NCBI GenBank assembly: GCA_017555695.1
Contig: JAFZFX010000036.1
Span: 1-64,000, forward strand
Length of the DNA stretch: 64,000 nt
Direction of reading: 5' to 3'
From: Alistipes sp.
GTDB taxonomy: Bacteria > Bacteroidota > Bacteroidia > Bacteroidales > Rikenellaceae
The position numbers were made by a program, and so were the translations under genes. The notes below the pieces were generated by a model. The model was not told where the DNA came from. It saw only the letters and a program-made list of their open reading frames with translations, and did not search any database. Shown piece by piece: positions 7,507 to 51,939 of this stretch (its first letter is position 1; each line of letters opens with the position of its first letter).

Positions 7507-8373
7507 CTACTTCTGCGAGCCCTCGACATTATTGTCCACACGCATTGCGGACATCGGCTCGTTGCTTCGCTTGATATTGCTACGCTGTAGATTGGGCGCA
7601 GCATTGGGTGTGGCTTTGGGCATAGCTTTGGGTCCGGCATTCGGTGCCATAGGCTTATTAGAGGGCAAGCCACTGCCCCTCCTAACAGGACTCTTCTTGG
7701 TGGTGTTCTTCTTGGGCTCCTTCTTCGGCTCTTTTTTAGGCTCCTTTTTGGGTTCAGCCTTGGCCGTAGAGTCAGACTTTGACGAGGGCTCGTCACTCAT
7801 AGTAAAATAGGTGACACCCTTGAGCTTACGATACTTCCACTCGATCATCTCCTCATCGCTCTCAAAACCTTCGCAGTCGGTCATCTCGTCACCATCGACG
7901 ATGCGAGAATCGACATTCGAGTAGATGCGGTGTGTGTACTGATTCCAGAAGAGCTGCTGGGTATAAAGACGACGGCCATTGCTCTGAATAACAACAACAT
8001 CGCCCTTAGCCTCCCATAGTTTACGGTTCTCGTAAAATATGGCATAATTGGCCGTCATTGTCGCGGCGCTATTAGAGGTAGAATCCTCCTCGAACATAGT
8101 GATTTTTATACCCTTTCTAAACTCACGATAGGGGTCACGAGCCAAGGTGTAACCCTCCATCAACGGAGTCTCGAAGTGGTATGACTTAACACCATTCTCC
8201 GACATCAGGATAGAGAGGTTTTCACTATACTCGGTCATCAAGTTCTCGGTCATCTGTTCCTCTTGCGACTCGACAGCATCTGACGGGGTGGCTTTACACG
8301 AGAATAGCAAGATAGCACTCCCCAAAAAAGGGAGTGCTACCGCTAAATTTCGTATAAGCTTACCTATCAACAT
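7507..8373 (-). CDS. lptC: LPS export periplasmic protein LptC with a Lys/Pro-rich tail
   Basis: 288 residues starting at the ATG at 8373; a TTG lies just in front. LptC bridges the inner-membrane LptBFG transporter to LptA for lipopolysaccharide export. The N-terminus is hydrophobic and ends in LLFSC, so it may be a lipoprotein rather than a transmembrane anchor. The beta-jellyroll part is at about 55-190 (TMTANYAIFYENRKLWEAKGDV and neighbours match the family). Odd: the last ~95 residues are a low-complexity tail with four EPKK repeats, then Met/Pro/Asn/Ala-rich sequence; ordinary LptC is about 190-210 residues. It follows a secreted TPR gene by 7 bases. Confidence 0.82.
   Translation of the reverse strand: MLIGKLIRNLAVALPFLGSAILLFSCKATPSDAVESQEEQMTENLMTEYSENLSILMSENGVKSYHFETPLMEGYTLARDPYREFRKGIKITMFEEDSTSNSAATMTANYAIFYENRKLWEAKGDVVVIQSNGRRLYTQQLFWNQYTHRIYSNVDSRIVDGDEMTDCEGFESDEEMIEWKYRKLKGVTYFTMSDEPSSKSDSTAKAEPKKEPKKEPKKEPKKNTTKKSPVRRGSGLPSNKPMAPNAGPKAMPKATPNAAPNLQRSNIKRSNEPMSAMRVDNNVEGSQK
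7708..7755 (-). repeat. Four 12-bp tandem repeats coding EPKK in lptC
   Basis: Four in-frame copies (7708-7719, 7720-7731, 7732-7743, 7744-7755) differ only at third positions of codons. The unit length keeps the frame, so copy number may vary between strains. Confidence 0.8.
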
Positions 8374-43015: not shown

Positions 43016-43699
43016 CTAAAAGAGCGACTGCTCGTAGAATGGGAAAAGCTCCTTATTATCATCATCGCTCTTGCGGCGGCGTCTTGTGCGCTTCTTTACG
43101 GGCTGCTCAACCGACGGCTCGGCAGGGCTCTCCTGCGGAGTCTCTGACCCTGACTCTGACTCGGCCACAACCACCTCCTCTGCGGGAGCAACTACTTCGG
43201 CAGGGGTACTCTCCTCCTCTGCAGGAGTAGCTACCTCTGTAGGGGCAACCTCCTCGTTCTTTGGTTTGGCGACAGCCTTTGCCGCGGGCTTGGCAGGCTT
43301 TGTGGCCGCCTTAACCTCGCGCTCGAGATCCTGCAACTCGGTTTCAACCGATACTACTACGCTGTTCTCGTCGTCGCCCTTGAGCTCCTCGCGCACCTCA
43401 ACCAATGCCGAACGGATACGCTGCAGACGCTCCAGCAGTTCAGTCTCGCGCGCAAGCTCCTTGCCCGATGCACCACGCATAACCTTACGGGCACCCTCGA
43501 GCGTCATACCGCGCTCTTTTACAAGATGATATATCTGCTTAAGTTTTTCAATATCTTCGGGCGTGAACATACGATTACCGCGCTTGTTCTTGTGCGGACG
43601 CAAACAATCGAACTTCGACTCCCAATGGCGAATGAGCGACTGATTGACATCGAACATCTCGGCCACCTCGCCCATTGAATAATAGATTTTTTCAGCCAT
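43016..43699 (-). CDS. MerR-family regulator with a long disordered tail
   Basis: 227 residues. The N-terminal ~75 residues are a MerR winged helix-turn-helix (YYSMGEVAEMFDVNQSLIRH, WESKFDCLRPHKNKRGNRMF, then YTPEDI-like FTPEDIEKLKQI). The rest of a normal MerR protein is a dimerisation helix (about 80-125); here it is followed by ~100 residues of Ala/Pro/Glu/Val/Thr low complexity (APTEVATPAEEESTPAEV) and a basic patch KKRTRRRRK near the end. It has no effector-binding domain. Its place in the operon between RsmF and NIF3 suggests it belongs to a conserved Bacteroidota gene group rather than controlling a metal response. Confidence 0.82.
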   Translation of the reverse strand: MAEKIYYSMGEVAEMFDVNQSLIRHWESKFDCLRPHKNKRGNRMFTPEDIEKLKQIYHLVKERGMTLEGARKVMRGASGKELARETELLERLQRIRSALVEVREELKGDDENSVVVSVETELQDLEREVKAATKPAKPAAKAVAKPKNEEVAPTEVATPAEEESTPAEVVAPAEEVVVAESESGSETPQESPAEPSVEQPVKKRTRRRRKSDDDNKELFPFYEQSLF

Positions 43700-47270: not shown

Positions 47271-47540
47271 ATGACATCGTCACTTTCCACTATACTAATT
47301 GTTGTCGGAGCATCGGTTTTGCTGGTCGGATTTTTCTTTTTGGGAATGTCGCTGACACAGATATTCAAGGGCCACGACATCGACTCGGAGATTGCCACTA
47401 ACAAGAATATGCAACGCCTGGGTATCAAGTGTGCCGTGCAGGAGTCACGCGAGGATACGGGTACAGATTGCGCCGACCTGGGTTGTCACGGCAACTGCTC
47501 GTCGTGCGATATAGACCACACCGCCGAGGAGAAGAAATAG
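47271..47540 (+). CDS. Small single-pass membrane protein with Cys-rich tail
   Basis: 89 residues. One helix (about 5-28, ILIVVGASVLLVGFFFLGMS), then a short basic/acidic stretch and a tail with six cysteines (IKCAVQ, TDCADLGCHGNCSSCDID). It might bind a metal or Fe-S cluster; NqrM-type Cys tails on a single helix are comparable, but I cannot make a firm family match. A promoter and a clean terminator bracket it, so it is a single-gene unit. Between trkA (-) and rpmA (-). Confidence 0.72.
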   Translation: MTSSLSTILIVVGASVLLVGFFFLGMSLTQIFKGHDIDSEIATNKNMQRLGIKCAVQESREDTGTDCADLGCHGNCSSCDIDHTAEEKK

Positions 47541-48085: not shown

Positions 48086-48103
48086 TTTCTACTAATTTTT
48101 AGG

Positions 48104-48415
48104 TTATGCAACAATATCCTCCACGAGAATCTGGGTCAAGTACTGACGGTGACCGTTGCACTTCTGATAACCAGTTCTACGCTTCTTCTTGAATACCAAG
48201 ACCTTCTCGTCCTTAAGGTGCTTCAAGACTTTACACTTAACCGAGGCGCCTTCTACTACAGGTGCACCTACCTTTACCTGACCGTCGTTGTCTACAAGCA
48301 GGACTTTGTCGAAGCTCACTGACGACTCTACGTCGTTCTGAAGACGGTGAACATAGAGCTTACGACCCTTCTCAGCCTTGAACTGCTGACCTGCGATTTC
48401 TACTATAACGTACAT
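48104..48415 (-). CDS. rplU: Large ribosomal subunit protein bL21
   Basis: 103 residues, normal length. Start [20 protein letters not shown] at 48415; an in-frame upstream extension is not part of the family. C-terminal [18 protein letters not shown] is the rRNA-binding signature. bL21 contacts domain I of 23S rRNA. It heads the L21-L27 operon; its promoter is at 48455-48484 and the transcript appears to begin with a stem-loop (48439-48451). Confidence 0.97.
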
Positions 48416-48438
48416 TTCTTTAATAAAATATAAGTTTT

Positions 48439-48484
48439 GCCGTAATTCGGCCTGCAAATATACTAATTTTTTTCCATGTACAAC
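48439..48484 (-). promoter_or_regulatory. rplU promoter and leader hairpin
   Basis: GTTG (48481-48484), 18 bases, TATATTTG (48455-48462). GCCG/CGGC (48439-48442, 48448-48451) forms a short hairpin with loop AATTA, within about four bases of the start site. Confidence 0.6.
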
Positions 48485-48563
48485 ACTTTGCCCATTATTT
48501 TTTTCTTTTTTCTGCTTTGGCACATTTTTGGATTGGCTTTTGCGGCAAATATTTACTCACACT

Positions 48564-48941
48564 ATGCAGCGAGGCAAGATTATCATATACTCACCAAAAC
48601 CACTACTGGCCGAGATGGTGGCCGACATCATAGGTTATGCCGAGGGTGAGATTATGCTGTGCAGTTCGACGCAACAGGTTGTGGAGCTGTGCGAAAGCAT
48701 ACGCGCCGACCTTGTAATCATCCTCTCTTCGGCGCCACTGCGCAACGGCAAGGGGCTCATCCAACGCCTAAGGCGCGGGCATCGCATACCAGCCATTTAT
48801 GTCATATCGTGGCATCACAACGAGCAGACCGTATTGAGTCTGCTGGAGTGTGGCGTGGACCAATATATGACCTTCCCCGTCTGCATGGAACGGCTGAAGA
48901 TAAAGTCCTCACGAGAGCATAACAATAAATGGGAGTCATAG
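48564..48941 (+). CDS. Degenerate (pseudo-)receiver domain protein
   Basis: 125 residues, a stand-alone receiver fold (CheY-like: KIIIYSPKPLLAEMVADIIG, ADLVIILSSAP, AIYVISWHHNEQ, LLECGVDQYMTFP). All key phosphorylation residues are changed: the acid pair is Ser10-Pro11, the phospho-Asp site is Leu54, and the conserved Lys is Phe104. It therefore probably cannot be phosphorylated and may act as a protein-protein adaptor. It starts at the ATG at 48564; a TTG upstream in frame was rejected. The next gene begins 3 bases after its stop. There is no obvious promoter; it is divergent to rplU. Confidence 0.75.
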   Translation: MQRGKIIIYSPKPLLAEMVADIIGYAEGEIMLCSSTQQVVELCESIRADLVIILSSAPLRNGKGLIQRLRRGHRIPAIYVISWHHNEQTVLSLLECGVDQYMTFPVCMERLKIKSSREHNNKWES

Positions 48942-48944
48942 ACG

Positions 48945-49901
48945 ATGAATCTATTATACATATATATTATAGTTATTTCGGTCGCAAGCGTCGCCGTCAT
49001 AGTAATAACAATCGCATCGACCATAGCGGGTGGTGCAAAGCATAATCGGATGCTGAAATTAAAGGCGTCATATATCCGCCAGGTGGTTTCACTTCTGCAG
49101 GGCGAGGAGCAATACGCAGCACGCATAGTAGCCACTACGCCCACACAACGCAGGGCCTTGTGCGAGGCTATCTATCTGGTGATGAGCCACACCTACGGCG
49201 CCAACAGCGTACGCTTAAAGCGCACCGTCGAGGAGAATCATCTTGAGGAGTTTATGCTAAATCGCATATCTACCTCTTCGGGTTACCGCAGAGCGCAGTG
49301 GCTGATGACAATGAGCAGTATCCCCATCAGCCTCAACAGCATAGAGTATATAGAGAAATATATCAACTCTTCGAATCACGCAATACGCATAGCGGCATTG
49401 ACCACCTTCGTGGCTGCAAATCCGCAGATGGCCATACGGCGCATCGCCTCGCTCGAATACCGCCTAATGCCGATAGACCTTGCCCACATCATCGCGCTCC
49501 TGCGTCGTGGCATACTACCTATAGCCTACGAGCCTCTGCTAGCGAGTCGCAACCCCAACCTCTGCCTGCTGGGCATAACGATAGTTCGCAACTTCGGCAT
49601 AGATATGGCCGACAAACAACTGCATAACATCATATCGGAGAGCAACGACAAGACTGTTCTGCGCGAGGCGATACTCACCCTGGCTGCATTGGGTCGCCCC
49701 TTGGGACGCATAAAAATTAGGGAGCGCATACGGGCGATGAGCCACCACGAGCGCAAAGCGTTCTGTCGCCATTTGGCTACCGAGGGATACTCGACACAGG
49801 CCCTGCGTACACTCTTTTCGGAGCGTGAGATGCATTATGCCGAGGCTTTAATTAAATCATACAAACGAGAGTTAGGATGTCAGCAATATACACAATCATA
49901 A
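48945..49901 (+). CDS. Membrane-anchored HEAT-repeat-like protein
   Basis: 318 residues. N-terminal membrane helix (about 3-28), then a wholly helical region with pairs of helices resembling HEAT repeats, for example IRIAALTTFVAANPQMAIRR, LLASRNPNLCLLGITIVRNF and KTVLREAILTLAALGRPLGR. Such solenoids bind proteins. It sits between a pseudo-receiver gene (3 bases upstream) and a GT2-like gene whose start overlaps its last 25 bases. Codon use (many ATA) differs from the housekeeping genes around. Function unknown. Confidence 0.7.
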   Translation: MNLLYIYIIVISVASVAVIVITIASTIAGGAKHNRMLKLKASYIRQVVSLLQGEEQYAARIVATTPTQRRALCEAIYLVMSHTYGANSVRLKRTVEENHLEEFMLNRISTSSGYRRAQWLMTMSSIPISLNSIEYIEKYINSSNHAIRIAALTTFVAANPQMAIRRIASLEYRLMPIDLAHIIALLRRGILPIAYEPLLASRNPNLCLLGITIVRNFGIDMADKQLHNIISESNDKTVLREAILTLAALGRPLGRIKIRERIRAMSHHERKAFCRHLATEGYSTQALRTLFSEREMHYAEALIKSYKRELGCQQYTQS

Positions 49902-50830
49902 CCGCCACACTACTTCTGGCGACAATACTCATTAGCCTCCGCACCGCGCTAATTATCAAAGCCGTACGCCACCGGAAATTCTTTATCGACGAGGCTGCGG
50001 GGTGCTGTGAGTCGCTCGGCTTTGTGGGATGCAGCGTCATCTGCCACACCGAGGTCGATATGGACCTAATCAACCACCTGCTACAGAGCGAATACGACCG
50101 CCACGAAGTAGTAGCAGCACTCGACTCACGCCTCGCGCCCGAGGAGTTTTATTCGATTGTCGAACATTTCGGAATGATTAGCGTAAACCCCACGACCAGC
50201 AACGAGCTGAAGGGGATACAACTGCGGGCTCTCTACCGCTCGCGCCAGCGGTGCTACAAGCGATTTGTGTTGATTGATGCGGCCAGCACCTCACCCTACG
50301 ATGCGCTAAACTGCGCCACCGCTGTCGCATCATTCGACTACATTCTACCTCTACCACGCAATTCCCGCCTGCACCCCTACGCCATAGAGAGTGCCGCAAT
50401 GGTTATCTCGGAGCAGGGCGACAGAGGCTTCGATTTTATAAGATGCACAGCCGACAAAGAGTGCTACATCCTTCGGCGAGAGTATATCATCCAGCAGGAC
50501 GGTTTTTCGGCCTCGATACTCGGAGGCACACCCCGCCGCAATATCATCTCTACGGCAATACCCATAGCCTACTCATCGGAGAGCAACAAAACCATCCGAC
50601 GCCGCTTGGCACTATATGCACTCGGGGCATTAGGCCCATTCATCGTGGCGGGAGCTTTTCTTGCATCGGCTCCTATAATCATTGCCACACTACTCACCGC
50701 AGCCTTTGTGGCGTTGCTTGCACGCTACAGCTCGCAATATATAGGCACAGAAAAGTGTTCAGAAAGGGTTATGTTGTGTTACATTCGTAATTTATTCGAT
50801 ATTTTTTGCTTAAGAAAATTTACTTTTTGA
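49877..50830 (+). CDS. Membrane protein with degenerate GT2 glycosyltransferase-like domain
   Basis: 317 residues. N-terminal membrane helix (about 5-22); a GT-A-like part at about 48-210 that follows the GT2 layout (GCSVICHTEVDMDLINHLLQ, HEVVAALDSRLAPEEF, YKRFVLIDAASTSPYDALN, DYILPLPRNSRLHPYAIE) but lacks a clear DxD and a QxxRW motif; two close C-terminal helices (about 249-290). So it is probably not a normal transferase; a scaffold or sugar-binding role is a guess. It begins inside the HEAT-like gene and is the last of the trio; cysQ follows 44 bases later. Confidence 0.65.
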   Translation: MSAIYTIITATLLLATILISLRTALIIKAVRHRKFFIDEAAGCCESLGFVGCSVICHTEVDMDLINHLLQSEYDRHEVVAALDSRLAPEEFYSIVEHFGMISVNPTTSNELKGIQLRALYRSRQRCYKRFVLIDAASTSPYDALNCATAVASFDYILPLPRNSRLHPYAIESAAMVISEQGDRGFDFIRCTADKECYILRREYIIQQDGFSASILGGTPRRNIISTAIPIAYSSESNKTIRRRLALYALGALGPFIVAGAFLASAPIIIATLLTAAFVALLARYSSQYIGTEKCSERVMLCYIRNLFDIFCLRKFTF

Positions 50831-50874
50831 TAAATTATATGTAACTTTACGAAAGAATCCTAAAACTACTAATA

Positions 50875-51723
50875 ATGCCTGAAAACCAGATTTACAAACA
50901 TATCAACGAGCAGATTTTGCCGCAGTGCTTCAATGCCGCAGTCAAAGCAGGTGCCGCAATAATGGGCATCTACAAGAGTCATGATTACGACATTTCACTC
51001 AAGAGCGACAAGACCCCCATCACCATCGCCGACCGATTGGCCCACAACACCATCAAGGAGCATCTGGGGCCATCGCGTATCCCCGTATTGAGCGAAGAGG
51101 GTCGTGAAATGCTCTACGACGAGCGCCGCAACTGGGAACTGTTCCTGCTTGTGGATCCGCTCGACGGAACAAAGGAGTTCATCAAGGGCAACAACGAGTT
51201 CACCGTAAACATCGCTCTGCTATATAACAACCAGTGCGTGGCATCTATCCTCTATGTGCCCTATCACTGCAAGATGTATGTGGCCGTCAAGGGCGAGGGC
51301 GCATATCTCATTCGCGACATCGTTCCTCAAGCCGAGCCCACATACAAGGCCAAGCAGATTGAGCAGATGATGGAGCGACTGCCGTTGGCGTGCAATCGCC
51401 ACGACGAGTTCCGCGTTGCCGTATCGAGGTCGCACCAGACTCCCGAGACTTTTCAGCGCATCGAGGAGCTGAAGGCTCTGCACCCCAACCTGGAGGTTGT
51501 CGAGCAGGGAAGTTCGTATAAGTTCTGCCTGCTTGCCGAGGGCGCAATCGACTACTACATCCGCACGACCAACACCTACGAGTGGGATACCGCTGCGGGC
51601 GAACTTATCCTTGCCGAGGCGGGAGGTCAAACCCTCTCTTACCCCGAAGGCGAACCTCTGAAGTACAACAAAGACGACCTGCGTAACCCCTGGTTTGAGG
51701 CCAAAGGCCCATACTTCAAATAA
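50875..51723 (+). CDS. cysQ: 3'(2'),5'-bisphosphate nucleotidase CysQ
   Basis: 282 residues. It removes the 3' phosphate of PAP (adenosine 3',5'-bisphosphate), a by-product of sulfate activation and of other sulfotransfer. Inositol-monophosphatase-fold motifs are complete: LSEEG near residue 72, DPLDGTKEF (about 94-102, metal-binding) and EWDTAAGELIL (about 239-249). A TAACTTTA element near 50850 could be its promoter. It ends with a terminator at 51745-51779. Confidence 0.93.
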   Translation: MPENQIYKHINEQILPQCFNAAVKAGAAIMGIYKSHDYDISLKSDKTPITIADRLAHNTIKEHLGPSRIPVLSEEGREMLYDERRNWELFLLVDPLDGTKEFIKGNNEFTVNIALLYNNQCVASILYVPYHCKMYVAVKGEGAYLIRDIVPQAEPTYKAKQIEQMMERLPLACNRHDEFRVAVSRSHQTPETFQRIEELKALHPNLEVVEQGSSYKFCLLAEGAIDYYIRTTNTYEWDTAAGELILAEAGGQTLSYPEGEPLKYNKDDLRNPWFEAKGPYFK

Positions 51724-51744
51724 CAGCATAATATCAAACTTTAG

Positions 51745-51779
51745 CACCTCGACCCGCAGATGGAGTCGAGGTGTTTTTG
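51745..51779 (+). terminator. cysQ terminator
   Basis: CACCTCGAC (51745-51753) pairs with 51765-51773, followed by five T. Confidence 0.8.
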
Positions 51780-51939
51780 TTTCGTACAAAAGGGCTCTCC
51801 TGCGCCAAATAACACATTCTCAAGCCAAAACGACGACCCCACACGACCCAATCGCCATTTTATCGACTGCAAATGAGAGGCTTTTCAAAAAAAACAATTA
51901 ACTTTGGCACAAAATATTCAACACACAAACTGTAAAATT

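Follow-up and report, generated by a model that had tools for sequence, protein, structure and literature searches.

Three closely packed genes in an Alistipes genome raise the question of whether proteins resembling a regulator, a scaffold and a polysaccharide synthase form a set that is kept together, and what such a set might do when each appears to be reduced relative to its known relatives. We addressed this in a 64,000-nucleotide stretch of contig JAFZFX010000036.1 (hereafter the window), compared with genomes of the same genus, family, order and class.

Organization of the locus

The trio spans positions 48564-50830 of the plus strand and is flanked upstream by rplU, on the minus strand, and on the other side by a gene for a cysQ-type phosphatase (50875-51723, plus strand; matches to Inositol_P PF00459 and CysQ models), a syntenic neighbour that is probably context and lies outside the putative complex. 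The first gene (48564-48941, plus strand, ATG start) encodes a receiver-like protein (REC) of 125 aa with a match to PF00072 (E 4e-8), the second (48945-49901, plus strand) a membrane-anchored HEAT-type protein of 318 aa, and the third (gene 3; 49877-50830, plus strand) a 317-aa membrane protein, the putative pseudo-GT2. REC and HEAT are separated by 3 bases, and HEAT and gene 3 overlap by 25 bases, just as the preliminary description of this DNA had reported. It had also placed two of the three proteins in the membrane, with which a simple hydropathy scan of the window proteins agrees: there are hydrophobic segments at residues 3-21 of HEAT and at residues 3-21 and 255-273 of gene 3, and none in REC.

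The trio was further described as rich in ATA isoleucine codons. This holds strongly for HEAT (22 of 36 Ile codons), fairly for REC (6 of 14) and poorly for gene 3 (11 of 34), because of 30 other long genes in the window one has a larger share than REC, three have a larger share than gene 3, and one reaches one half; the cysQ-type gene has 1 of 20. Recent horizontal acquisition, as ATA-rich codons might suggest, is unsupported, since relatives share the site between rplU and cysQ and the trio HEAT proteins fall on one side of a tree (see below). Rfam and tandem-repeat scans found nothing at the trio. Elsewhere the window contains a Bacteroidales small SRP RNA (RF04183; 18642-18748, minus strand), short tandem repeats at 7708-7752 (period 12) and 43168-43255 (period 39), and a frame at 47271-47537 for a membrane protein of 89 aa whose tail is rich in cysteine and which has no confident family; locus L048 has a similar frame.

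Distribution and linkage of the three genes

Profiles of HEAT and gene 3 match in 106 and 108 of 180 genomes of the genus, respectively, and the two are adjacent on the same strand in 103. The adjacent pair is absent from the search results for the remaining 77, many of which are incomplete, and HEAT is missing from 24 of the 70 genus genomes that are at least 90% complete. In a first set of 37 genus genomes, all 27 HEAT-positive genomes have all three genes, with no HEAT match in the other 10. Named genomes contributed 31 loci, 30 from Alistipes or Rikenellaceae and one from a Bacteroidales bacterium, and all three genes are present in 30 of these; the exception is a contig of 3094 bases with no gene-3 frame before the contig end.

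A family-level sample shows HEAT profile matches in 118 of 250 genomes, 22 of them from nine other genera. Eighteen sister-genus loci were examined, of which 17 have a REC-like frame and 16 a GT-like frame, and all three are present in the order REC-HEAT-GT in 16, representing eight other Rikenellaceae genera. Single-sequence searches of 24 genomes from other families of the order found neither HEAT nor REC, and the gene 3 query matched nothing there but two GT2s of full length, one in G043 and one in G049. The neighbourhoods thus show that the trio is conserved in relatives; neither a dispersal of its members among unrelated families nor a lack of conservation was seen, and the trio is apparently kept together, under selection, across much of the Rikenellaceae.

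Intact counterparts in Bacteroidia

In G043 (locus L086), genes for a REC, a YaiO outer-membrane protein, a membrane HEAT protein and a full GT2 lie in a row. The HEAT protein of this genome, used as a query, has matches in 27 of 247 genomes of the class. In ten class-level loci (10 of 28 match places, all among the 12 strongest), HEAT is always beside a full GT2 and a match to a YaiO/TPR query is always present, and nine have a stand-alone REC; a contig end may hide that of the tenth (L193). Within the order, the intact HEAT profile matches in 56 of 393 genomes at 1e-8, where the weaker matches may be other HEAT proteins, and a GT2 is located within the 1.5-kb flank of HEAT in 22 of 26 order-level loci. 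Related trios with intact GT2 proteins had been predicted in Bacteroidota, and they are found in the form of a PgaC-type REC-YaiO-HEAT-GT2 cassette scattered over Bacteroidia (e.g. L086 and L195; L193-L202). An open-licence literature search, a weak one with mostly all-terms-required queries, did not find this cassette by title or abstract start.

The cassette GT2 of L086 matches TIGR03937 (PgaC_IcaA) with an E value of 3e-38 and 132 bits, below the 422-bit cutoff, and its location beside a YaiO/TPR outer-membrane protein resembles that of pgaC beside the pgaA porin gene in PgaABCD. The trio and the cassette share clustered genes for REC, membrane HEAT and GT2, with HEAT and GT2 homologous by profile and REC by the receiver profile. 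The trio differs in having no YaiO (two YaiO/TPR queries gave no match in the 64-kb window at E<=1e-3 or in 18 sister-genus stretches at E<=1e-4), a REC that is apparently phosphorylation-dead, and a GT2 that is shortened and apparently dead.

A PgaC-like locus with the order HEAT-GT2-YaiO/TPR-DUF4838-DUF1573 is present in four of the 180 genus genomes (L183, L185, L187 and L189; counted with one GT2 query at E<=1e-30, Pfam being run on L185 only), with an interrupted GT2 frame in two of the four, and the same query and threshold found no matching intact machine in the window's own genome. The trio had been tentatively tied to a polysaccharide machine, and these data do not support that link: because the machine is seen in 4 of 180 genomes and HEAT with gene 3 in 103, the trio would usually act without it. 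The same imbalance, with half of those few GT2 frames interrupted, weighs against the trio being a regulatory partner of another, still-active glycosyltransferase machine in the same cell. Derivation from a synthase cassette is compatible with such a partnership, and in G313 the trio coexists with an intact HEAT-GT2-YaiO-DUF4838 locus, but overall we regard it as quite unlikely.

Relationships of the HEAT proteins

The window HEAT protein has a weak Pfam match to HEAT_2 (E 0.02), and 5 of 32 relatives match at E<=0.01. In profile-profile comparison, the trio HEAT profile matches the HEAT partners of intact GT2s at a probability of 97.2 (E 3e-11). In a HEAT tree, 67 trio proteins (49 from Alistipes and 18 from other Rikenellaceae) are placed opposite 39 intact-cassette proteins with SH-aLRT support of 99, in a quick search with a midpoint root and with composition and long-branch warnings. 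Because trio and intact HEATs split across one branch of this tree, a single origin of the trio HEATs is likely, depending on the root. The intact-cassette side includes three Alistipes proteins; a derivation of the trio from Alistipes' own rare intact locus is unsupported, the HEATs of that locus grouping with the intact cassettes.

Loss of phosphorylation residues in REC

The REC profile matches receivers in the PDB (best E 2e-12), and alignment of the window protein shows L at the phospho-Asp position, S-P at the acidic pocket and F at the Lys position. Among 49 Alistipes trio RECs the phospho-Asp is present in two and the Lys in none, compared with 10 of 10 intact-cassette RECs; the first residue of the acidic pocket is present in none and the second position is acidic in 13 (D in 10 and E in 3). 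Asp and Lys occur jointly in 0 of 49 Alistipes and 0 of 17 sister-genus RECs. To judge from its sequence, gene 1 encodes a pseudo-receiver, with a receiver fold from which the phosphorylation residues are gone, and not a canonical response regulator. The Pro that follows the Lys site is present in all 49 Alistipes trio RECs, and the invariant columns all lie between residues 80 and 114, a region that we take, from receiver topology as we know it, to form the alpha4-beta5-alpha5 face. Pseudo-receivers and aspartate-less receivers (PMC12632262, PMC4395418) share with the trio REC a receiver fold without phosphotransfer residues; the trio REC differs in standing alone, in an operon with HEAT and the pseudo-GT2 and with no effector domain.

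A shortened GT2-like protein without catalytic motifs

Gene 3 aligns by hhalign with the intact cassette GT2 of G043 (probability 98.7, E 1.8e-16, 131 columns), the match covering the N-terminal half. The window gene 3 alone has no glycosyltransferase match in Pfam, Glycos_transf_2 is matched at E<=0.01 by 3 of 31 aligned relatives, and searching the PDB with a gene-3 profile yielded no match. The DxD, ED and QxxRW motifs, which we take to be those of functional GT2 synthases of the PgaC/BcsA type, are each complete in 0 of 49 distinct Alistipes gene-3 proteins and in 12 of 12 intact GT2 controls. The GGK Lys is kept in 1 of the 49, and the single DxD Asp residues survive in 1 and 5; 14 have a DxD tripeptide nearby, though aligned with the ALN position, and two have QxxRW elsewhere. 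In the sister genera the first Asp of DxD is kept in 7 of 16 proteins, and none of the aligned stretches listed has a complete DxD, ED or QxxRW. The gene-3 proteins are also short, with a median length of 312 (254-349) versus 473-517 for intact GT2s. The region after the DxD helix is missing and the acceptor region with it, so that relative to PgaC gene 3 lacks both the three motifs and the acceptor region, and a complete GT-A domain with following membrane helices is not found.

Some features of the fold do persist. The Asp of the NDG motif (D83; codon at 50123-50125, plus strand), which presumably contacts uracil in GT2 enzymes, is D in 40 of 49 trio proteins and Asn in nine, and is D in 12 of 12 intact GT2s and in E. 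coli PgaC. This residue, a half GT-A fold as judged by profile match, and the first DxD Asp of the seven sister-genus proteins are what one could cite if gene 3 were a still-active transferase with an unusual active site; with each of the three motifs complete in none of the 49, the GGK Lys in one, and the acceptor part gone, such activity is very improbable. A search of the open-licence literature for dead glycosyltransferases mainly found work on cyclitol-coupling enzymes, to which the word is applied in another sense.

Invariant or nearly invariant positions of gene 3 include G51, E77, R121 and S122, the last being kept in 49 of 49 proteins. Between the NDG and GGK strands, cassette GT2s and gene 3 have about 26 residues that are absent from E. 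coli PgaC; the counterpart of residues 86-136 of the window gene 3 is 50 residues long in intact cassette GT2s and 24 residues long in PgaC. Within this longer stretch, residues 105-136 (the YRSR segment; 50189-50284, plus strand) rank first in mean conservation among 11 segments (0.573, followed by 0.554 for residues 49-85, and 0.432 overall), the segments being delimited by eye and the means ignoring relatedness.

Selection, loss and a conserved upstream element

In close pairs of relatives, dN/dS is 0.08-0.42 for HEAT (8 pairs). For gene 3 it is 0.05-0.28 over 7 full-length pairs, with fragment rows down to 0.02 excluded, and for REC it is 0.04-0.23 among the pairs listed (25 of 36, one not a trio REC). 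Some rows enter more than one pair, and the genes of the window itself enter none, for want of a sufficiently close relative. As these values are well below 1, selection acts in the gene family, and HEAT and gene 3 are selected, not junk. Protein distances among the trio members remain correlated after removal of those of cysQ and rplU (partial r 0.48-0.69 over 24 loci, with none of 500 permutations as high), in what is a weak test because the permutation breaks phylogeny and overstates significance.

The trio is also lost. We read the cysQ sites of 13 genomes without a clear trio (15 were queried, less one with no cysQ match and one that was the window's own). One of these, G316, has REC and the start of HEAT, which breaks off in 100 consecutive N; its cysQ is on a separate stretch that also has 100 N (L190, L215). 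The trio may therefore be present there but interrupted by the assembly or by withheld bases, and G316 is not counted as a clear loss. The other 12 sites are trio-less: five carry rplU and cysQ and nothing of the trio in between, three have retained only REC, one has REC together with a HEAT start in a fused frame, and in three (L204, L205 and L210) the flank examined contains no rplU, which makes them uninformative. The five clean losses between rplU and cysQ indicate that the trio is dispensable, and the retention of REC at 4 of the 12 sites disfavours a strict three-part complex.

The remnants themselves vary. In L206, L208 and L216 the pseudo-receiver is alone at the rplU-cysQ site after loss of HEAT and GT, and may have a role of its own. 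L214 is a deletion remnant: after its receiver comes a frame that begins like HEAT and, by eye, seems to end like gene 3. A short gene-3-like fragment (E 6e-6; L191, 6483-6731, minus strand) is present in G412, whose cysQ site is trio-less.

Upstream of the trio is a candidate cis element, TTTGGCACATTTTT (48516-48529, plus strand), that is conserved across trio loci. In 30 of 32 trio loci the pattern TGGC(A/G)(C/T)NNTTTT occurs in the 150 bp that precede REC, in 26 of them in the form TGGCACNNTTTT. All 4 REC remnants at trio-less sites have it too, as do 3 of 17 loci from sister genera, and none of the 10 intact cassettes has it. In mononucleotide shuffles, which ignore relatedness, a mean of 0.025 of 32 rows contain the box. 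The exact form TTTGGCACNNTTTT is present once in the window's own genome, and 25 of 100 window shuffles contain a match with at most one mismatch; as a single genome copy is close to chance expectation, conservation is the argument for the box. Control by sigma-54 was considered and rejected, since RpoN is encoded but there is no -24/-12 match (no -12 box) in any of the 32 upstream stretches. A sigma-70 scan of 48100-51900 returned eight promoter-like and one terminator-like matches versus shuffle means of 4.6 and 3.4, and is uninformative for this phylum.

Taken alone, the lost catalytic motifs, the absence or reduction of the trio in many genomes (including the three REC-only sites and the one with a HEAT scrap) and the fast divergence of its proteins (mean distances of 0.89-1.21, versus 0.36 for cysQ) would fit a relic of a lost synthase locus, slowly decaying and without present function. 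We nonetheless consider this unlikely, as dN/dS is well below 1 in every pair listed, the frames are open and in the same order in eight other genera, gene-3 positions such as G51, E77, R121 and S122 are invariant or nearly so, and the upstream box is conserved.

A proposed role for the trio

The preliminary description had held that the three genes belong together and that each of their products is a known fold in reduced form; both points are upheld by the linkage in the genus and sister genera, the profile matches and the motif losses. We propose, with a probability of roughly 0.6, that the trio forms a non-catalytic inner-membrane complex descended from a REC-YaiO-HEAT-GT2 polysaccharide-synthase cassette. 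The basis for this is the homology of HEAT and gene 3 to cassette partners, the loss of catalytic and phosphotransfer motifs, the split in the HEAT tree, the co-linearity of the genes and purifying selection. Such a complex would keep the surfaces with which the synthase binds its partners and assembles, and drop catalysis. The HEAT solenoid, held in place by its N-terminal helix, would bind the GT2-like protein through the YRSR segment, part of the extra stretch by which cassette GT2s differ from PgaC, and would bind the pseudo-receiver, locked in one state, through its alpha4-beta5-alpha5 face. Because the remaining GT-A half of gene 3 retains the presumed uracil-contacting Asp, the complex may read uridine nucleotides; alternatively, it could serve as a plain scaffold for other envelope enzymes. 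Besides the genomes lacking the adjacent pair, the clean losses and the REC genes retained at trio-less sites, it counts against this model that D83 is Asn in 9 of 49 proteins and that the conservation edge of the YRSR segment over residues 49-85 is slight.

An extension of this proposal, which is rather unlikely, is that a whole synthase complex has been turned to signalling, in which the dead GT2 would read a uridine nucleotide by means of its residual GT-A half, HEAT would relay this, and the locked pseudo-receiver would present an unchanging surface for output. The supply of envelope precursors would in this way be coupled to a further envelope process throughout the Rikenellaceae. What the trio has kept suggests candidates for the regions that bind HEAT and REC in the active cassette, of which we found no description in the literature searched, and offers a way to tell the surfaces of a membrane synthase complex that serve assembly from those that serve catalysis. 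Discussion of pseudoenzymes usually concerns individual proteins; in this case both a regulator and a polymerase look dead, accompany a scaffold, and appear to be selected in a family of gut bacteria.
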